Source of the DNA: Streptomyces sp. NBC_01431
Lineage (GTDB): Bacteria > Actinomycetota > Actinomycetes > Streptomycetales > Streptomycetaceae
Assembly (NCBI RefSeq): GCF_036231355.1
Contig: NZ_CP109496.1
Span: 6,386,001-6,450,000 of the forward strand
Direction: 5' to 3'
DNA: 64,000 bases
The position numbers and the translations under genes were made by a program. The first letter of the stretch is position 1. Each line of letters starts with the position of its first letter. Of this stretch, positions 15,011 through 62,664 are shown piece by piece. The notes beneath the pieces were generated by a model that saw only the letters and a program-made list of their open reading frames with translations, was not told the origin of the DNA and made no database searches.

Positions 15011-15138
15011 GTCGCCCATGATCCGGCAACGCGCCCGCCCGCGCACGTGTTTTGTCCCGTTGGCAGACCGGGGACGTTCCGTACCCGTTCCGCTGAAACC
15101 AGCCGGAATGACAACTGCCGCCACTACGCTGCCCCGTG

Positions 15139-16509
15139 ATGGAACGTCATCCCGCCACCGCCTCCCGACAGGGCGGCCCCGCCAGAACGCCCCGGGTCAG
15201 GACCTCGGTGCTGCTGGCCTTCGTGTTCCTCGCGGCCCTCGCGCTCCTCCTGACAATGTGCGGTCAAACGAACAGAACCGGCCGGGGCGGCCCAGGCGCC
15301 GACGACGCCGCCTCCGCGCTCGGCTGGGGTTTCACGCACACCCAGTACAGCGCCGACACCGGCGCTGACGACGCCGTGGCCCGCGCCCGCGACCTGCTGT
15401 CCGGGCAGAGCCTGCCGCAGAACCAGGCGCTGATGGGCTGGGGCGCGGGCAACCCGGAGCCGTCGCCGGGCACGTACGACTTCTCGGATCTCGACCGGCG
15501 CGTCGCGTTCATCCGTTCCACTGGCGCCACCCCCGTCATCACGCTGTGCTGCGCGCCCGACTGGATGAAGGGGGGCCGGGCCGGCGCGAGCAGGACCGAC
15601 TGGAGCGTGCAGTCGCTGGAATCGGCGCCGCTGCCCACCCACTACGAGGACTTCGCGACCCTGGCCGCCCAAGTCGCCCAACGCTACCCGGACGTCCGGC
15701 ATTTCATCGTCTGGAACGAACTCAAGGGCTTCTACGACGACGCCGCCGGGCGCTGGAACTACGAGGGCTACACACAGCTCTACAACCAGGTCTACAAAGC
15801 GGTGAAGAAGGTCAGCAAGGCCGATCTGGTCGGCGGGCCCTACCTGGTCATGGACAGCTACGCGCCCAAGGACCAGTCGTACGCCTCCGGCCTGTCGGGC
15901 CCCTGGGGTTCGGTGGACCAGCGCGTGCTCGACGCCTTCACCTACTGGAACGACCACAAGGCGGGCGCCGACTTCGTGGTCGTCGACGGCGCGAGCTTCA
16001 CCCGGGACGCCCAGCTGCTTCCCGACGCGTTCAGTGCCACTGACAAGCTGACGGCGGTCAGCGACTGGGTGCGCAAGGAGAGCGGCGGGCTGCCGCTGTG
16101 GTGGGCCGAGTACTACGTGGAGCCCGACCAGTCCGGCTGGAGCGAGCAGCGGCGGGTCGCCACCCAGGCCGTGGGCATGATGGCCCTGGCGCGCGGCGGC
16201 ACCAGCACCGCCTTCTACTGGAGCCCCGAGGAGCAGAGCGGACCCTGCCCGGGATGCCTGTGGACACCCACTCAACTCGGCGACGGCGGGCGCGAGTTGG
16301 CGATGTACACACTGGTCGCCAAGTTCGCCGGGGCCTTCGGGCCGGGCGCCCGCTTCACCCCCGTCAGTGTGGATCCACCGACCCTGCGGGTGCTGGCGAG
16401 CGGCAAGGACGTCCTCGTCGTCAACACCCTCGACCGTGCCGTCGACGCGACGGTCGACGGCAGGCCGCTCTCCCTCGCGGGCTACGAAGTGCGCTGGCTG
16501 ACCCGGTGA
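15139..16509 (+). CDS. Secreted GH39-like glycoside hydrolase (beta-xylosidase-type fold)
   Basis: 456 residues. A membrane-spanning signal anchor (about 23-42, then Cys) exposes a TIM-barrel domain. Candidate catalytic acids are Glu194 in VWNELKG (the NE acid/base of clan GH-A) and Glu324 in WWAEYYVEP (nucleophile). The layout resembles GH39 beta-xylosidase/iduronidase relatives. It points toward the polysaccharide export genes and overlaps the flippase stop by 28 bases tail-to-tail, so it may trim or degrade the polymer made there. GTG at 15136 and ATG at 15139 are both possible starts; no strong ribosome site is present. Confidence 0.78.
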   Translation: MERHPATASRQGGPARTPRVRTSVLLAFVFLAALALLLTMCGQTNRTGRGGPGADDAASALGWGFTHTQYSADTGADDAVARARDLLSGQSLPQNQALMGWGAGNPEPSPGTYDFSDLDRRVAFIRSTGATPVITLCCAPDWMKGGRAGASRTDWSVQSLESAPLPTHYEDFATLAAQVAQRYPDVRHFIVWNELKGFYDDAAGRWNYEGYTQLYNQVYKAVKKVSKADLVGGPYLVMDSYAPKDQSYASGLSGPWGSVDQRVLDAFTYWNDHKAGADFVVVDGASFTRDAQLLPDAFSATDKLTAVSDWVRKESGGLPLWWAEYYVEPDQSGWSEQRRVATQAVGMMALARGGTSTAFYWSPEEQSGPCPGCLWTPTQLGDGGRELAMYTLVAKFAGAFGPGARFTPVSVDPPTLRVLASGKDVLVVNTLDRAVDATVDGRPLSLAGYEVRWLTR

Positions 16510-17804
16510 GGCTCGGCCGTCCGCAGCACTCCGAACAGTTTCACCGCCGCGATCGCCGCGATCACCGAAAGGCTCGCGACCTCCGCGATGCCGACGCCGG
16601 TCAGCCCCAGTGGGCCAAGGAGCGCCAAGGTGGAGCCGAGCACCAAGGCGCACAACCCGCCCTGCAAAAGGGCCAGGCCGGCCGTCCGGTTCCGCGCGCG
16701 CAGCACCGCGAAGTACAGCTCGATCACCACCCGCAGCAGCGCCCCCACCACCAGGCACCGCAGCAGCCCGGTGGCGTGAGCCGCGTACCCCTCGCCGAAC
16801 ACGTGCAGGACGTGCGGGGCGAAGGCGAAGATGAACGCGCAGATCGGTACCACGATCTTGACCATACGGAACAGCGCGGCCCGCGCGTTCCGTCCGAGCC
16901 GCTCCGGGTCGTGCGCGCCCTCGACGGTCAGCGAGGCGCCCATGTTGATGGCGAGCAGTTCGACGGTGCCGCCGATGGTGGCGGTGATGTAGAAGTACGC
17001 GTTGTCCGCCGAGCTGATCCGCGCGGCGACGATCACCGGGACCAGGTAGACCACGGCCAGCGCGAACAGCGAGCCCGTGTAGTCGCCCGCCAGGAAGCGG
17101 CCCAGCTCCCGGTAGGACGGCGGGTGGGCGGTGTGCACGGTGAGTTCGACATGGCGCGGCACCAGACGCCGGAACACCAGCCAGCCCAGCGGCAGTACGG
17201 ACACCGCGATCGCCGCCACCCAGGACACGAACACCCCACTGGTCGGCAGCGAGGCGGCGATCGCCACCAGGAGCAGCAGTTTGACCGCGGAGAACGCGGT
17301 GTTGCCGACCGGCACCCAGAACGCGCTGCGCAGTCCGGTGAGCACCCCGTCCTGGAGGGTGAGCACCGACCAGGCCATGACCGCCGCGATGAAACCGAGC
17401 CCCTTGAACGGGCCGTGCAGAAAGCGGTAGGAGGGACCCCAGAAGTCCAGGGTCTCCATGAACACCAGCGCGGCCACGCCGACGACGCAGGTGCTCAGCG
17501 TGTAGGCGCGCAGGACGAACCGTCCGGTGGCGGCGCCCGCCACCGGGATGAAGCGGGCCATCGCCCCGGTCAGGGTGAGCGCGGTGATCCCCGCGAGGAA
17601 CTTCATCGCGGCGATCGCGGCCGAGCCCTGGCCCACCGCGTCATCGGTGTAGTACCGGGCGGCGATCAGCCAGAAGCCGAGCCCGAGCACCGCACTGATG
17701 CCCGTGTTGAGCATCAGCGCGTAGGCGTTGCGGAAGAGTGGGGTGCCCCGGTGTCTGCCCCGGGGCTGCGTCCTTCGGTCCTGGGCGGTGGTCACGTCAG
17801 CCAC
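16482..17804 (-). CDS. Polysaccharide flippase (MOP superfamily, Wzx-like)
   Basis: 440 residues with about 12-14 predicted membrane segments from NAYALMLNTGISAVLGLGFW onward, typical of the oligosaccharide flippase group that moves lipid-linked glycans across the membrane. The start is GTG at 17804, after GGAAGG. It lies 28 bases downstream of the deacetylase gene as the last gene of a four-gene minus-strand operon, and its 3' end overlaps the GH39-like gene. Confidence 0.88.
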   Translation of the reverse strand: MADVTTAQDRRTQPRGRHRGTPLFRNAYALMLNTGISAVLGLGFWLIAARYYTDDAVGQGSAAIAAMKFLAGITALTLTGAMARFIPVAGAATGRFVLRAYTLSTCVVGVAALVFMETLDFWGPSYRFLHGPFKGLGFIAAVMAWSVLTLQDGVLTGLRSAFWVPVGNTAFSAVKLLLLVAIAASLPTSGVFVSWVAAIAVSVLPLGWLVFRRLVPRHVELTVHTAHPPSYRELGRFLAGDYTGSLFALAVVYLVPVIVAARISSADNAYFYITATIGGTVELLAINMGASLTVEGAHDPERLGRNARAALFRMVKIVVPICAFIFAFAPHVLHVFGEGYAAHATGLLRCLVVGALLRVVIELYFAVLRARNRTAGLALLQGGLCALVLGSTLALLGPLGLTGVGIAEVASLSVIAAIAAVKLFGVLRTAEPHRVSQRTS

Positions 17805-17832: not shown

Positions 17833-18642
17833 TCAGCCGCCGCCGAGCCTGCGCCCGGCCTGCCGGGCCCTGCGCAGTACCGCGTAGCCCTTCGTCAGGA
17901 CGCGGTCCGCGGCGAAGGCGCGCGCGATGTCGCGGCCGGTGCCCGCGACGAGCCGCTCGAACTCGTCGATGCCGGTGGTGCGCCGGACCGTCACCCGCTC
18001 CAGGGCGTACGGTCCCTGGCGCCGCCGGGCGAGCGAGTTGCCCACGGCCAGCGCCTGGGTGAAGCCCGCGGCCCGCACGGTGCGCCGCACCCGGCGGCTG
18101 GAGTAGCCGTAGGGATAGGCGAACGAGACCGGCCGCCGCCCCAGCTCGTCGGTGAGGATCTCCTTGCAGCGCAGGGTCTCGAACCACAGCCGCTGGTCGT
18201 CGAGTTCGTCCATCCGCGGATGGCTGTGACTGTGCCCGCCGATCTCGGTGCCGGCCGCGACGAGCTCACGCACCTGGCCCCAGTCGAGCATGGTGTCCAG
18301 GGCGCCGCCCTCGTCGTACGCGCCGCGCAGCCAGCCCGTCGACACGAAGAGCGTGGAGGCGAAGCCGTACTTGGTGAGGACCGGCAGGGCATGGCGGTGC
18401 ACGCCCTCGTAGCCGTCGTCGAAGGTGATCAGGACGGGATGGCGTGGAAGCGCTCCCGCGGTGCGCCAGGCGTGCCCGAGCTGCGCCGTGGTGACCGGGG
18501 TGAACCCCAGCTCGGCCAGCAGCTCCATCTGGTCGGCGAAGGCGTCCGGTGATACGGACAGGCCGTAGGCCGCCTTCGCGGGGCTGTGGGCCACCGCGTG
18601 GTACATCAGGATGGGCACCGGCCCCGTTCCCGTCGCCGTCAT
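17833..18642 (-). CDS. Polysaccharide deacetylase (NodB/CE4 family)
   Basis: 269 residues. Catalytic motifs are visible: ILMYHAV, LITFDDGYEG (TFDDG base and metal Asp), GGHSHSHPRM (metal His pair) and SFAYPYGYSS. CE4 enzymes remove N- or O-acetyl groups from polysaccharides or peptidoglycan. No signal peptide is evident, so it may act on lipid-linked intermediates or leave by a non-classical route. Its ATG overlaps the stop of the preceding glycosyltransferase (ATGA). Confidence 0.93.
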   Translation of the reverse strand: MTATGTGPVPILMYHAVAHSPAKAAYGLSVSPDAFADQMELLAELGFTPVTTAQLGHAWRTAGALPRHPVLITFDDGYEGVHRHALPVLTKYGFASTLFVSTGWLRGAYDEGGALDTMLDWGQVRELVAAGTEIGGHSHSHPRMDELDDQRLWFETLRCKEILTDELGRRPVSFAYPYGYSSRRVRRTVRAAGFTQALAVGNSLARRRQGPYALERVTVRRTTGIDEFERLVAGTGRDIARAFAADRVLTKGYAVLRRARQAGRRLGGG

Positions 18643-19673
18643 GCCGCTTCGTCCTCTCCGGTGCTCCTCTTGCCCGTGTTCTCTTCGTCCGGTACGCGTT
18701 CGATGGGAGCCACCTGGAAGCTCGCCGCGCCGCGGCGGGCCCGCACGGTGCCGAGCAGATACCCGCCGGCCGCCACCGCGACGCCCGTCACGATCGCGCC
18801 CGCGCGGCCCGCGCCTCCCGGCCGCCCGAGCACCGCGTCCCGCACCCCGCGCACCACACCCGCCGGAAGGACCCGGGTCGTGTAGCGCCGCTCGGACTCA
18901 AGTCCCTTGCCAGTACCGACACTTCGGGCCACCAGCGCCTTGGAGAGACCCTCCGCGTACGCCCGCGTACGGAAGTAGCCGAAGCGCTCGCGGGCCGCGG
19001 GCACCCGATGGTGGATCACCGCGCGGTCATCGATGAGCAGCACGGCATCGGGCAGCGCCCTGCTGAGCCGGATGCACAGCTCGGTCTCCTCGCAGCCCAG
19101 TGGCCGCTTGTCGCCGTCGCGACCGATGCCGGTGGCGAAGCCGCCCGCCGCGTCGAACGCCGACGTACGGAAGGAGGCGTTGCCGCCGAGGACGTTGCGC
19201 ACCACCACCCGGCCCGGCGGCAGGCCCCGGTAGGTGCAGCCGACGACCCAGTCGAACTCCTCGGGGAACCAGGCGGGACGGTGCCCCGAGGCCCAGGCGG
19301 GCATCGTCCTGCCGCCGACCGCCATCACCCGCGGGTCGTCGTACCCCGCGGCGAAGTGGCGCAGCCAGTCCCGCTCGGCCACGGCGTCGTCGTCGAGGAA
19401 GGCCACGAACTCGCCCCGGGCGGCGGCGATACCGGTGTTGCGACCGGCCGAGAGGCCGCGGGGGCCCGCGTTGGCGAGCACCCGCACCTTCTCGGCCGGG
19501 GCCGTGAACTCCGCGCGGAGCCGTTCCAGGAGCCGCTCGTTGTGGTCCACCACGAGCAGCGTCTCCAGGGCGGGCAGCGACTGCGTGCGCACCGAGGAGA
19601 CGGCCGCCAGGATGTCCTCCCAGCGGTCCTCGGTGTACACGCAGATCACCACGGAGAATTGACGCTCCGTCAA
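18639..19673 (-). CDS. Family 2 glycosyltransferase
   Basis: 344 residues. The GT-A fold begins FSVVICVYTEDRWEDILAAV, with DDDAVAE as the DXD metal site and GCEETELCIRL as the likely ED catalytic loop. A hydrophobic C-terminal segment (about 300-320) may attach it to the membrane. The start is an unusual TTG at 19673 whose first bases overlap the stop of the upstream gene (TTGA), with GGGGAGAGG as ribosome site; this implies tight translational coupling. Confidence 0.88.
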   Translation of the reverse strand: MTERQFSVVICVYTEDRWEDILAAVSSVRTQSLPALETLLVVDHNERLLERLRAEFTAPAEKVRVLANAGPRGLSAGRNTGIAAARGEFVAFLDDDAVAERDWLRHFAAGYDDPRVMAVGGRTMPAWASGHRPAWFPEEFDWVVGCTYRGLPPGRVVVRNVLGGNASFRTSAFDAAGGFATGIGRDGDKRPLGCEETELCIRLSRALPDAVLLIDDRAVIHHRVPAARERFGYFRTRAYAEGLSKALVARSVGTGKGLESERRYTTRVLPAGVVRGVRDAVLGRPGGAGRAGAIVTGVAVAAGGYLLGTVRARRGAASFQVAPIERVPDEENTGKRSTGEDEAA

Positions 19674-20533
19674 GAGACCTCTCCCCGCCGTGTGTTCAGG
19701 AACACCGCCTGCGTCCGGCGGCGTGCGCGGGGCACCGCCTTCTCCTTGAGGATCACCTTCAGGACGCGGATGCCGTCGCGCACCGCGCTGAGGTTGGAGA
19801 CGCCGTGGATCCGGTTGTACTCGTAGCTCGGGACCTCTTGTACGCGCAGGCCCGCCTTGACGATCCGGACGTTGATCAGGGTCTCGATCTCGAATCCGGA
19901 GCAGTCCAGCACGATCTTGTCCAGGCAGTGCCGCCAGAAGGCGTTGTAGCCGTAGCAGAGGTCGGTGTAGCGGGCGCCGAACTTGCGGTTGACGATGCCG
20001 CACAGGACCGCGTTGCCGAGCTTGCGGATCGGTGTCATGTCGTCGGTGCCGCCGCCGTTGGCGAAGCGGGAGCCCTTGGCGAAGTCGGCGCCGCCGACCA
20101 GCGCCGAGACGTAACTGACGATCTCCTCGCCGTCCGCCGAGCCGTCCGCGTCGACCATGACGATGATGTCGCCGGTGCAGGCCGCGAAGCCGCTGATCAA
20201 CGCGTCGCCCTTGCCCTTTCCGACCTGTTTGACGACCTTGACGTCGGGCCACAGTTCGCGGGCCACCCGCACGGTGTCGTCGGTGGAATTCCCGTCGACC
20301 AGGACCACTTCGTGGATCCAGTCCGGAAGTGTCTTGAACACATACGGAAGGTTTTCGGCCTCATTCATCGCGGGGATGACCACGCTCACCGGCGGCGCAA
20401 TGGCGAGATTCGCCGAAACGGGCCGGTACTCAGCTGGTATTCGGTTGTCCGCGGCCGTGGCCGTGCGGCCGTGCGGCGAATCCGGAATTAATTGATCTTG
20501 GCCCGGCACGGCCGGGCGCACCGAAGAAGTCAT
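19670..20533 (-). CDS. Family 2 glycosyltransferase (dolichyl-/polyprenyl-phosphate sugar synthase-like) with a TTA codon
   Basis: 287 residues, DPM1-like. VSVVIPAMNEAENLPYVF opens the GT-A domain; DGNSTDDTV and VMVDADGSADG carry the nucleotide-sugar and DXD residues. No C-terminal membrane segments are present, as in soluble DPM1. Such enzymes load a sugar onto a polyprenyl phosphate, consistent with a lipid-linked pathway ending in the flippase. Residue 15 is encoded by TTA (bases 20489-20491), the only in-frame TTA seen in the window, so translation should need the bldA tRNA. This is the first gene of the polysaccharide operon; ATG at 20533. Confidence 0.9.
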   Translation of the reverse strand: MTSSVRPAVPGQDQLIPDSPHGRTATAADNRIPAEYRPVSANLAIAPPVSVVIPAMNEAENLPYVFKTLPDWIHEVVLVDGNSTDDTVRVARELWPDVKVVKQVGKGKGDALISGFAACTGDIIVMVDADGSADGEEIVSYVSALVGGADFAKGSRFANGGGTDDMTPIRKLGNAVLCGIVNRKFGARYTDLCYGYNAFWRHCLDKIVLDCSGFEIETLINVRIVKAGLRVQEVPSYEYNRIHGVSNLSAVRDGIRVLKVILKEKAVPRARRRTQAVFLNTRRGEVS

Positions 20534-20850
20534 GATGAGTCTCTGTCCCTCTCGTCCGGTGGACCGCCCGCCCCCGGGTGGTCCGGATGAGTTTCCGGTT
20601 ACGAAAGGGGGGTTCTCACCCCGGTCATGACGGCGCGGAACACCGCACTGATTGGGCGAGCTGGCTTTACTGGCCGCGCGGCCCGTGTTCCGGCCTCCGC
20701 ACTGCGAGGACCGAGCACGGCACCCCCCTACCGCGCCCCGCTCCGGCACCCATCGTGACGCTTGAGCCCTCCCCTTGCGTCGCAATACCCGATGGACCGA
20801 TGCGGGTGGATGTAAGACGGTATTGATGCTTGGGACTGTAGGGCAAGACC
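20534..20850. other. Promoter region of the polysaccharide operon
   Basis: 317 bases without a gene. It holds the 5' leader of the operon, including a hairpin GGACCGCCCG/CGGGTGGTCC at 20561-20584 just upstream of the start. Inverted arms CAATACC (20783-20789) and GGTATTG (20819-20825) lie nearer the small membrane protein. I cannot place a confident promoter. Confidence 0.5.
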
Positions 20851-21279
20851 TCAGGCGAGGCCTCGCGTTTCCTTATTTTCGGCCGTACTTTCACGGCCAC
20901 GTCCGGAACGATGCGCTCCCGTCCCCACCAGGAATAGAAGAAGGCTGATCACGCCAACTGCCGTGACGCCGCTCCGGATAGACCACATGTGCAGAGCCGC
21001 CATGCTTTCGGCGGTCAGCAGATCGATGAGTACTGCTCCTGATATCGACGCCACCGAGCGGCTGAGCGGTTCCAGCCGGTTCAGGGCGAATGCGGCCGCT
21101 TCGGCGGGCGCTGCTATCAGGAAGAAGAGCGCGAGCGGTGCGCGCAACGGAGAGTCCAGGCCGCCGAGGGCCAGCACGGCGCCCGCCGCGGACACGGCGA
21201 GCGACGCCCCCGCGAGGACGGGCAGCAGATCGGCGCCCACCGAGGCGCTCCCTGCCGGTCTGTCACTGATGGTCTGCAT
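20851..21279 (-). CDS. Small four-helix membrane protein, unknown function
   Basis: 142 residues starting MQTISDRPAGSASVGADLL, with four hydrophobic segments at about 17-40, 45-65, 75-95 and 102-122 and a hydrophilic tail. GGGGGG precedes ATG at 21279. It resembles no family I can name. It is on the same strand as the polysaccharide operon and 317 bases upstream of it, so it may be part of the locus but is probably transcribed separately. Confidence 0.65.
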   Translation of the reverse strand: MQTISDRPAGSASVGADLLPVLAGASLAVSAAGAVLALGGLDSPLRAPLALFFLIAAPAEAAAFALNRLEPLSRSVASISGAVLIDLLTAESMAALHMWSIRSGVTAVGVISLLLFLVGTGAHRSGRGRESTAENKETRGLA

Positions 21280-59371: not shown

Positions 59372-59887
59372 TCAGGACAGGCTGAGCCCCGACGCCCGCA
59401 GCCGCCGCCAGGCCGCGAGGCCGTCCGGCACCCACTCCCACTCCCCGATCCGGCGTTCAAGCTCGGCCAGGGTCAGGAAGTCGTGCCAGGCGACCTCCTC
59501 CACCTGGGGGTGCACCGCGAGCTCGCAGCGCACTTCGTACACCGAGGACCACCAGGTCTGCGCGCCGTTCTCGTAGAGGAACTTGAACAGGGGCACGGGC
59601 CGGGGCAGACCGGACACGCCGAGCTCCTCCTCGGCCTCGCGCAGCGCCGCGGTGTCGTAGGACTCGCCCGCGCCGACCACCCCGCCGACGAACATGTCGT
59701 AGAGCGAGGGGAAGACGAGCTTGCCCGGGGTGCGGCGGTGGACGAAGATCCGTCCCGCGCCGTCCCGGGCGAGGACGAAGACGCAGCGGTGGCGCAGGTT
59801 CTTCGCGTAGGCCTCGGCGCGCCGGGCCTGCCCCGTCACCGTGTCGTGCTCGTCGACGATGTCCAGGATTTCGTCAGCCGGATTCAT
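59372..59887 (-). CDS. NUDIX hydrolase
   Basis: 171 residues. The Nudix box GGVVGAGESYDTAALREAEEELG fits GX5EX7REUXEEXGU fully. The start EILDIVDEHDTVTG resembles the YfcD/IPP-isomerase-like subgroup of Nudix hydrolases. It would cleave a nucleoside diphosphate linked to some moiety; substrate unknown. ATG at 59887, stop near the DUF202 gene (18 bases). Confidence 0.92.
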   Translation of the reverse strand: MNPADEILDIVDEHDTVTGQARRAEAYAKNLRHRCVFVLARDGAGRIFVHRRTPGKLVFPSLYDMFVGGVVGAGESYDTAALREAEEELGVSGLPRPVPLFKFLYENGAQTWWSSVYEVRCELAVHPQVEEVAWHDFLTLAELERRIGEWEWVPDGLAAWRRLRASGLSLS

Positions 59888-59945
59888 GCGGCCATGAAAT
59901 CACCGGCCGCGGGCACTGCTCCACAGGTCCGCCGGCGACCGGCTC

Positions 59946-60842
59946 TCAGTGCGGCTGGAGGTCGCGGACCTCTTCGCGCGCGGCCGTGCCCGACGGCATC
60001 GCCGGATGCAGCCCGAGCAGCACGATGCCGGTCACGATCGCCGCGAGCCCGGCCGCCTCCCACGCCAGCGCGCCCGCGTCCGTACGCAGCTGGTCCCCCA
60101 GGAAGCCGACCCCGCAGGCGATGCCCGCCAGCGGCTGGGCGGCCGTCAGGGCCGGCAGGGACATCCGCAGCGGGGCGGCCTCGAAGGCGCTCTGCACCAT
60201 GACGAGGCCGCTCACCCCGAGCGCGATCACGGCGTACAGCTGCCAGCTCGTCATCAGCCCCGCCCAGCCGCCGCCGGAAAGACGCTGCCCGCTGACCCGC
60301 GTCAGCGCGTCCTGGAGGCCGTAGAGCAGACCCGCGGCGACGGCCAGCATGACGGGGGCCGCCACGCTGAGCCGGTCGTGTTTGGCGAGCGCGGCGAGCA
60401 GCAGCGCGATCCCCACCACCAGGCCCACGATCAGCCAGTGGCGCAGCGGGCCCGCCACCGAGGTGCTGCCCTGCGGCTGGCCCGCCACGATGAAGGCCGT
60501 CACCCCGCCCGCGAGCAGCGCGAGCCCCGCCCAGCCCTGACGGCCAAGCGGCTGACGGGTCTGGAGTCTGGACAGCCACATGGCGAAGAACAGATTGGTC
60601 GCCACCAGCGGCTCGACGAGGGAAACCTCGCCCCGGCCCAGCGCCAGCGCGCTCAGCACCATGCCGGCCACCATCAGGCCTATTCCGGCCAGCCAGCGTG
60701 GCATCCGCATGAGGTCGAGCAGGAGCCGTGGCGACATGAAGTCGCTCATCGGGGCGTGTTGCGCCGCGTTCTGCTGCAGCACGAAGCCCGAGCCCAGACA
60801 ACACGCTGCGCTCACGGCGAGGACGAGGACCACTACCGACAC
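59946..60842 (-). CDS. DMT/EamA-like permease
   Basis: 298 residues with about nine to ten membrane helices, starting VVLVLAVSAACCLGSGFVLQQ. The layout (ALGRGEVSLVEPLVATNLFFAMWLS, WQLYAVIALGVSGLVMVQSAFEAAPL) resembles the drug/metabolite transporter magnesium-transporter NIPA-like group of DMTs. Start GTG at 60842 has a TTGAGG site with eight-base spacing; GTG at 60851 is an alternative. Substrate unknown. Confidence 0.82.
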   Translation of the reverse strand: MSVVVLVLAVSAACCLGSGFVLQQNAAQHAPMSDFMSPRLLLDLMRMPRWLAGIGLMVAGMVLSALALGRGEVSLVEPLVATNLFFAMWLSRLQTRQPLGRQGWAGLALLAGGVTAFIVAGQPQGSTSVAGPLRHWLIVGLVVGIALLLAALAKHDRLSVAAPVMLAVAAGLLYGLQDALTRVSGQRLSGGGWAGLMTSWQLYAVIALGVSGLVMVQSAFEAAPLRMSLPALTAAQPLAGIACGVGFLGDQLRTDAGALAWEAAGLAAIVTGIVLLGLHPAMPSGTAAREEVRDLQPH

Positions 60843-61008
60843 GACGTACACCTCAAGGACGGCCGGGGGCCGCTGACTTGGCCGACGATAGCGCGCCGTG
60901 GCCGCGGCCGCCTCCCGGGCGCCGGGCCCCGGGCGGTTGACGCACGCCGACGGGATACCGAAGATCTGACGCACGGGTAACTTGGCGGACGAGCGGAGTG
61001 AGCGGCCC

Positions 61009-62664
61009 ATGGCGTACGACGCCGATGTGATCGTGGTCGGGGCGGGGCTCGCGGGCCTGGTGGCCACCGCCGAGCTGGTGGACGCGGGCAAGAAGGTGAT
61101 CCTGCTCGACCAGGAGCCCGAGCAGTCGATCGGCGGCCAGGCGCACTGGTCGTTCGGCGGGCTCTTCCTGGTGGACTCGCCCGAGCAGCGCCGGATGCGG
61201 ATCAAGGACAGCCGCGCGCTCGCGCTCCAGGACTGGTACGGCACGGCGGGCTTCGACCGGGCCGAGGACCACTGGCCGCGCCAGTGGGCCGAGGCGTACG
61301 TCGACTTCGCCGCCGGCGAGAAGCGGGCGTGGCTGCACGCCCGGGGAGTGCGGTTCTTCCCCGTGGTGGGCTGGGCCGAGCGGGGCGGTTACGACGCCAA
61401 TGGGCATGGGAACTCCGTCCCCCGCTTCCACATCACCTGGGGCACCGGACCGGGCATCGTGGCCCCCTTCGAGCGGAGGGTGCGGGAGGGCGCCGCCCGT
61501 GGCCTCGTTCAGTTCAGGTTCAGGCACCGGGTGACGGGTCTGGGCCGCGGCGCCGGAGCGGTGGACACCGTGACCGGGGAGATCCTGGAGCCGTCCGACG
61601 CCGGGCGCGGGACCGCGTCCACCCGGACCGTCACCGGCTCCTTCGAGCTTACGGCGCAGGCGGTCATCGTGACCAGCGGCGGCATCGGAGGCAACCACGA
61701 CCTCGTGAGGTCCCAGTGGCCCCAGCGGCTCGGCACCCCGCCCGAGCACATGCTGTCCGGCGTCCCCGCCCATGTGGACGGGCTGATGCTGGGCATCGCC
61801 GAACAGGCGGGCGCGCACCACATCAACCGCGACCGGATGTGGCACTACACCGAGGGCATCCAGAACTGGAACCCGATCTGGGCCCGGCACGGCATCCGCA
61901 TCCTGCCCGGACCCTCCTCGCTCTGGCTGGACGCGCGCGGCAGCCGGCTGCCCGTGCCGCTCTTCCCCGGTTTCGACACCCTCGGCACGCTCGACCACAT
62001 CATGAAGACCGGCCACGACTACACGTGGTTCGTGCTCGACCAGAAGATCATCGGCAAGGAGTTCGCGCTGTCGGGCTCCGAGCAGAACCCCGACCTGACC
62101 GGCAAGTCGGTCCGGGGCGTCATCGGGCGGGCGCGGGCCGACGTGCCGGGCCCGGTGAAGGCGTTCATGGACCACGGCGCCGACTTCGTGGTCGAGAAGG
62201 ACCTCGCCTCGCTGGTGCGCGGCATGAACGCGCTCACCAAGGAACCCCTGATCGAGGAGGCCGCGCTGCGCCACGAGATCGTGGCCCGCGACCGCGAGAT
62301 CGCCAACCCGTTCACCAAGGACCTCCAGGTCACCGCCATCCGGGGGACCCGCAACTACCTCGGCGACAAGCTCATCCGCACCGCGCCGCCGCACCGCATC
62401 CTCGACCCGAAGGCCGGCCCGCTGATCGCGGTCAAGCTGCACATCCTCACCCGCAAGTCGCTCGGCGGCCTGGAGACCGACCTGTCCTCGCGCGTCCTGA
62501 CGGCGGGCGGGGAGCCCCTGCCCGGTCTGTACGCGGCGGGCGAGGCGGCCGGGTTCGGCGGCGGAGGCGTGCACGGCTACCGCTCCCTGGAAGGCACCTT
62601 CCTCGGCGGCTGCATCTTCTCGGGACGGGCGGCGGGCCGGGCCGCAGCGAAGGCGGTGGACTAG
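61009..62664 (+). CDS. FAD-binding dehydrogenase (succinate dehydrogenase/3-ketosteroid dehydrogenase-like)
   Basis: 551 residues. The dinucleotide-binding start DVIVVGAGLAGLVATAELVDAGKKVILLDQE and the end PGLYAAGEAAGFGGGGVHGYRSLEGTFLGGCIFSGRAAG define the FAD domain of the flavocytochrome c/fumarate reductase/KstD family. Length and layout match the FAD-binding dehydrogenase subgroup that stands alone without cytochrome. Substrate unknown. GGAGTGAG precedes ATG at 61009. Confidence 0.92.
   Translation: MAYDADVIVVGAGLAGLVATAELVDAGKKVILLDQEPEQSIGGQAHWSFGGLFLVDSPEQRRMRIKDSRALALQDWYGTAGFDRAEDHWPRQWAEAYVDFAAGEKRAWLHARGVRFFPVVGWAERGGYDANGHGNSVPRFHITWGTGPGIVAPFERRVREGAARGLVQFRFRHRVTGLGRGAGAVDTVTGEILEPSDAGRGTASTRTVTGSFELTAQAVIVTSGGIGGNHDLVRSQWPQRLGTPPEHMLSGVPAHVDGLMLGIAEQAGAHHINRDRMWHYTEGIQNWNPIWARHGIRILPGPSSLWLDARGSRLPVPLFPGFDTLGTLDHIMKTGHDYTWFVLDQKIIGKEFALSGSEQNPDLTGKSVRGVIGRARADVPGPVKAFMDHGADFVVEKDLASLVRGMNALTKEPLIEEAALRHEIVARDREIANPFTKDLQVTAIRGTRNYLGDKLIRTAPPHRILDPKAGPLIAVKLHILTRKSLGGLETDLSSRVLTAGGEPLPGLYAAGEAAGFGGGGVHGYRSLEGTFLGGCIFSGRAAGRAAAKAVD

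Follow-up and report, generated by a model that had tools for sequence, protein, structure and literature searches.

A candidate translational leader switch and a codon-15 UUA in a Streptomyces polysaccharide operon

The polysaccharide operon and its UUA codon

The window, that is the whole 64,000-nucleotide stretch of Streptomyces sp. NBC_01431 DNA analysed here, contains on its minus strand a polysaccharide operon whose genes and upstream elements are collected in Table 1. Surface polysaccharides of Streptomyces have a part in aggregation, attachment and aerial growth, and the timing of their synthesis is, to our knowledge, poorly understood. The product of gene 1 has 287 residues. It matches the DPM1/AglJ polyprenyl-phosphate sugar transferases, its best solved relative being the dolichol monophosphate mannose synthase 5mlz (8e-19). 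The match to the AglJ model TIGR04182 (5e-41, 141 bits) lies below the curated equivalog cut-off of 325, and the protein further differs from AglJ by an extra, variable N-terminal linker of ~48 residues, which carries the TTA codon. Gene 2 matches the AglG-like model NF041394 (4e-65), also under its cut-off. The TTGA and ATGA overlaps named by the initial annotation are both read directly in the sequence, the former joining genes 1 and 2 and the latter genes 2 and 3, and the 4-nt overlap of the first pair is kept in 211 of 212 orthologues. Gene 4 had no match in Pfam or PDB sequence searches; its hydrophobicity and context make a saccharide flippase likely.

Table 1. Operon genes and upstream elements in window coordinates (leader strands are given as RNA)
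Feature	Position	Strand	Remarks
Gene 1, DPM1/AglJ-like family 2 glycosyltransferase, ATG start	19670..20533	-	Pfam PF00535, 2e-22
Gene 2, GT2 glycosyltransferase, TTG start	18639..19673	-	PF00535, 5e-22
Gene 3, polysaccharide deacetylase	17833..18642	-	PF01522, 1e-27
Gene 4, hydrophobic membrane protein	16482..17804	-	Same strand, 28 nt after gene 3
TTA (UUA) leucine codon	20489..20491	-	Codon 15 of operon gene 1; read directly
Shine-Dalgarno region CGAGAGGG	20547..20554	-	Sequestered in one of two folds
Ribosome-site hairpin GGACC.CCC/GGGCGGUCC	20561..20584	-	Between anti-SD and SD
Switching strand ACCCCCCUUUCG	20602..20613	-	Pairs with loop 20729-20722 or Shine-Dalgarno
Third hairpin CUCGCCC (20660-20654) / GGGUGAG (20621-20615)	20615..20660	-	
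Second hairpin GCGCGG-UAGGGGGGUG-CCGUGC	20715..20736	-	95.8% of cells paired
5' domain, long bulged hairpin, 70 nt	20737..20806	-	Covariation
Promoter-like pair TTGCCC - 18 nt - TACCGT	20817..20846	-	-35 at 20846-20841, -10 at 20822-20817

Two neighbouring genes may be mentioned. A GH39-like glycoside hydrolase gene, below the Pfam cut-off, lies convergent with the operon (15136-16509, plus strand) and is a possible polymer-processing partner; it was found in 26 loci, many loci being too short to show such a gene. Upstream of the operon and in the same direction, a gene for a small hydrophobic protein (20851-21279, minus strand) is present in 75 of 230 loci and bears a TTA in 11 of these by a crude count.

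A direct read places the TTA codon on the minus strand, at codon 15 counted from the ATG at 20533, as previously annotated. The accompanying statement that it is the only in-frame TTA among the genes of the window also holds, within a crude gene call of ~55 genes. The TTAs associated with an SDR gene (~52.4 kb) and a TetR gene (~41.4 kb) lie upstream of the likely starts, and that of an open frame at 59887-61009 (minus strand) precedes its first start codon. A wrong start codon, which would leave the TTA of gene 1 outside the gene, was also considered, since a compositional caller favoured an internal GTG. The orthologues share the upstream ATG, the N-terminal motif MSSxLRPAxxGQDP and a conserved ribosome-binding site 7-12 nt upstream, and the TTA thus lies in frame within a real coding sequence, as in bldA-dependent genes. 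A bldA-type tRNA-Leu(UAA) gene is found in the genome. The rarity of the codon in the window is uninformative with respect to a chance presence. Across 213 Streptomyces genomes the mean is 177 TTA genes per genome (PMC10327506), so a single TTA gene among ~55 is what the genus normally has (roughly 1-2 per 55 are expected), and rarity was therefore dropped as evidence in favour of the codon's position among orthologues.

Gene 1 orthologues are present in 163 of 296 same-genus genomes. One carrier of the gene is S. albidoflavus (locus L212), a species with laboratory strains. DNA from 149 of these, together with 80 named Streptomyces loci, gave 212 distinct genes, of which 36 carry TTA at codon 15 and one at codon 16; these positions account for 37 of the 41 TTAs across the whole set. 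It is the position of the TTA (codon 15/16), not its presence, that exceeds chance. The TTAs away from codon 15 are those of loci L122 (codons 16 and 247), L059 (codon 246), L207 (codon 220) and L211 (codon 53). Leucine at codon 15 (n=54) is encoded by TTA in 36 genes, TTG in nine, CTG in six and CTC in three; outside codon 15 only two TTAs occur among 3011 leucine codons (149 genes). The orthologues without TTA have Ser, Thr, Pro or Ala at the same place. The codon is missing from 83% of the orthologues, which nevertheless retain the operon and its leader. In the common layout, MSSxLRPAxxGQDP is followed by a hypervariable linker of very unequal lengths and then by the enzyme. Codons 2-14 (20492-20530) are well conserved despite the hypervariable linker after them and may have an RNA or translation-initiation role.

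On a tree built from genes 1 and 2, the TTA state requires at least 21 changes, whereas shuffled states need 30 or more, and TTA turns up in about 24 distinct clades. Maximum likelihood places TTA at the root for all gain rates tried. As judged from these sequences, the codon-15 TTA is old and was subsequently lost many times. Its estimated loss rate, 7.1 per substitution per site, falls near the middle of the values for neighbouring codon states and for the AT-ending codons of the gene, inside both ranges. Strong purifying selection on the TTA is unsupported, loss being no slower than that of neighbouring codons, and selection for keeping it is thus unproven. Compensating TTAs elsewhere in the operon were considered and set aside, such codons being rare in genes 2-4. 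The gene has no entry in the list of frequently TTA-bearing genes (PMC4255298, Table 2) and is not among the 11 conserved TTA codons of PMC10327506.

A predicted conserved, structured leader upstream of gene 1

The region upstream of gene 1 contains near-invariant blocks over about 330 nt (20534-20850, minus strand), with a conservation far above that of the TTA. It is this putative structured leader, unnoticed in the initial annotation, that would be the operon's conserved control element. The predicted 5' leader has ~277 nt. Its promoter-like pair is nearly invariant as TTGCCA/TACCGT in 93 aligned upstream regions, although a stricter consensus scan made no call there. From this pair a transcription start at ~20810 is predicted, and the structured region begins within a few bases of it. 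A scan showed no terminator here.

The 5' domain is built from stems of the types CCCGC/GCGGG, CGG/CCG, CCAUC/GAUGG and GCGGC/GCCGC and is closed by the invariant cap AGGGGAGGGCUC (20775-20764). It is followed by the second hairpin, whose loop AGGGGGGU (20729-20722) is nearly invariant, and, after a variable stretch, by the third hairpin. The latter has at least six of its seven pairs in 132 of 178 sequences, a count somewhat biased because the partners were picked as the best match, and its fourth pair varies between AU, GC and GU. Closer to the gene, the ribosome-site hairpin GGACCGCCC/GGGCGGUCC can be enclosed by the pairing of CCCUUUCG with the Shine-Dalgarno (SD) sequence CGAGAGGG. In nearly all orthologues GAGAGGGA stands 7-12 nt before the start codon and can pair with CCCUUUCG.

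The secondary structure is conserved and supported by covariation, computed on the hypothesis-driven alignments A2 and A3; RNAalifold on the gappy full blocks gave no structure. In the 5' domain and second hairpin together, both partners have changed in 11 of 24 pairs, with 54 compensatory cells versus 19.5 in shuffles (0/500 as high). In the 5' domain 90% of the cells are paired, a value that falls to 38-49% once the partners are slid, and the gene tree requires at least 32 independent Watson-Crick to Watson-Crick double changes in this domain. Compensatory changes affect six of the nine pairs of the ribosome-site hairpin (22 cells versus 5.2 in shuffles, 0/500), which the tree resolves into at least 18 independent double changes. 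The total for the leader is at least 50 independent compensatory base-pair changes.

A covariance model built from the 5' domain was searched in 296 Streptomyces-group genomes and found exactly one copy in 157 of them, and none in a sample of 89 further genera drawn at order and class level. The genomes with the RNA (157) and those with gene 1 (163) are the same set, apart from seven that have the gene but not the RNA and a single one where the reverse holds. Three of the seven are distant gene matches near 1e-66, and in the single RNA-only genome the contig ends inside the gene region, shortly downstream. The RNA thus holds a consistent position upstream of a defined GT2 gene. In Rfam 15 no family scores above its gathering threshold for the leader; weak scores against models of viral tRNA-like elements and plant miRNAs were taken as chance.

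Two computed alternative folds of the leader

The strand ACCCCCCUUUCG has two possible partners. It is a perfect 8-nt complement of the loop AGGGGGGU in 177 of 212 genes and, over its CCCUUUCG part, it pairs with the SD, the pairing with CGAGAGGG being nearly invariant. The two pairings are mutually exclusive. The three elements involved (switching strand, loop and SD) hardly vary, so both alternatives are supported by complementarity and not by covariation.

Constrained folding, in which the enforced pairs were verified, gives -142.8 kcal/mol for both folds of the window leader when each helix is enforced. Over 160 orthologues the energy difference between the folds is -0.6 +/- 2.6 kcal/mol. 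When the sequence context is shuffled by a simple procedure (dinucleotide blocks within segments) with the motifs kept, the energy spread is 7.5 kcal/mol. In 6 of 40 shuffled contexts, versus 27 of 40 real contexts, neither fold is more than 3 kcal/mol from the best energy. The long-range fold often leaves part of the SD paired, with one to three of its six bases free. The computed folds thus provide the two exclusive structures, one of them sequestering the SD, that characterize an expression platform. The best reading is that the leader is a candidate riboswitch-like bistable translational switch with an optional UUA gate downstream.

Proposed control of the operon and relation to known systems

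In the model that we favour, with a probability of roughly 0.6, the operon would be controlled post-transcriptionally at two successive points, the leader switch and then the UUA gate. The leader would form the capped 5' domain, the hairpin with the AGGGGGGU loop and then the switching strand. In the OFF state ACCCCCCUUUCG would be paired with the SD and translation would not occur. In the ON state the same strand would be paired with the upstream loop, the SD would be less sequestered and translation could start. A ligand or a protein on the 5' domain would be expected to set the balance between the folds. Subsequently, in the source species and some others, elongation through the codon-15 UUA would require the bldA tRNA, and the overlapping genes downstream would be affected by polarity.

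The nature of the signal divides the readings of the leader. It may be, tentatively, the founding member of a Streptomyces-restricted riboswitch class, in which the AGGGGAGGGCUC-capped 5' domain would bind a metabolite or signalling nucleotide and control polysaccharide synthesis via long-range anti-anti-Shine-Dalgarno pairing, with the bldA/UUA gate added in some species. A protein- or temperature-responsive RNA, or a translation-coupled attenuator, in place of a metabolite riboswitch is quite conceivable, if short of even odds. The association with a single gene, the restriction to one genus and the invariant purine-rich cap suit a protein site equally with an aptamer. The stems are, on the other hand, very GC-rich and stable for a simple thermometer, and no upstream reading frame for a conserved peptide was noticed on informal inspection. 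It is improbable that the upstream conservation reflects clustered transcription-factor sites, or a small RNA made separately, and not an mRNA leader. The many near-invariant blocks, promoter-like boxes included, would fit such elements, but the compensatory changes in the 5' domain and ribosome-site hairpin, the near-invariant complementarity to the SD and the single copy per genome directly upstream of the same gene all argue for a leader.

The second point of the favoured model takes up the proposal of the initial annotation that bldA gates the polysaccharide locus. Such gating is plausible in view of the ancestral TTA, the bldA tRNA and the near-universal overlap of genes 1 and 2. A requirement shared by the orthologues is not indicated, because 83% of them are without the TTA, which is lost at a rate no lower than that of its neighbours. 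For the same reasons, and given the published leakage by which UUA can be mistranslated without bldA (PMC4932002), it is unlikely that the UUA is the main developmental gate, through which the supply of bldA tRNA would tie the polysaccharide to late growth and aerial development, even though TTA is the ancestral codon, makes up two thirds of the codon-15 leucines (36/54) and is matched by a tRNA in the genome. A polarity precedent exists in SCO6638/6637, a UUA gene with an overlapping stop/start for which a bldA mutant showed lower levels of RNA as well as protein (PMC2000904). On this precedent, polar effects of the UUA would be expected for the operon. The opposite view, in which the TTA is a relic in an unconstrained linker, decaying neutrally and with little regulatory effect, is possible and somewhat doubtful. 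It agrees with the Ser, Thr, Pro and Ala that replace the leucine and with a loss rate of 7.1 inside the range of the neighbouring states and AT-ending codons. However, the remainder of these genes strongly avoids TTA (2/3011 leucine codons), so it is not obvious that a codon kept only passively should persist in about 24 clades.

The two-step model has known counterparts for each of its parts. As in the bldA/UUA-dependent genes adpA and SCO6638-SCO6637, a single TTA codon lies in an auxiliary gene, and the stop/start overlap of SCO6638/6637 with the next gene (PMC2000904) is like that between genes 1 and 2 here. Unlike in those genes, the TTA is kept in 17% of the orthologues and the dependence on bldA is a prediction. 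UUA gating is a known kind of control, to which this gene would add a new member with weak conservation.

For the leader, the closest parallels are the dauA, livJ and pntA motifs, described as orphan riboswitch candidates of Streptomyces in the parts of PMC11109978 available to us. These leaders too are structured, have a genus-level distribution and include the SD in the fold. Compared with their description there, the present leader precedes a different gene (that of the GT2 polysaccharide operon), is longer and has a long-range loop pairing exclusive with the SD pairing. The main text of that source names no polysaccharide gene and leaves one of the four S. avermitilis candidates without a name. 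Within these limits, the leader resembles the known Streptomyces candidates in type and not in gene or structure, and there is a real chance that it represents a new riboswitch class. Polysaccharide operons are also preceded by conserved elements in the JUMPstart/ops-RfaH and epsC (EAR) systems (PMC2864571). Those elements are tied to transcription elongation, whereas the present leader showed no terminator, has its invariant pairing directed at the SD and has no Rfam match.

The leader RNA, present in over half of the sampled species, offers a single-copy handle on polysaccharide control and possibly a new RNA sensor. The operon is also a natural experiment on UUA gating, given by species that share the leader and the operon with and without the TTA, and including those with other leucine codons at codon 15.
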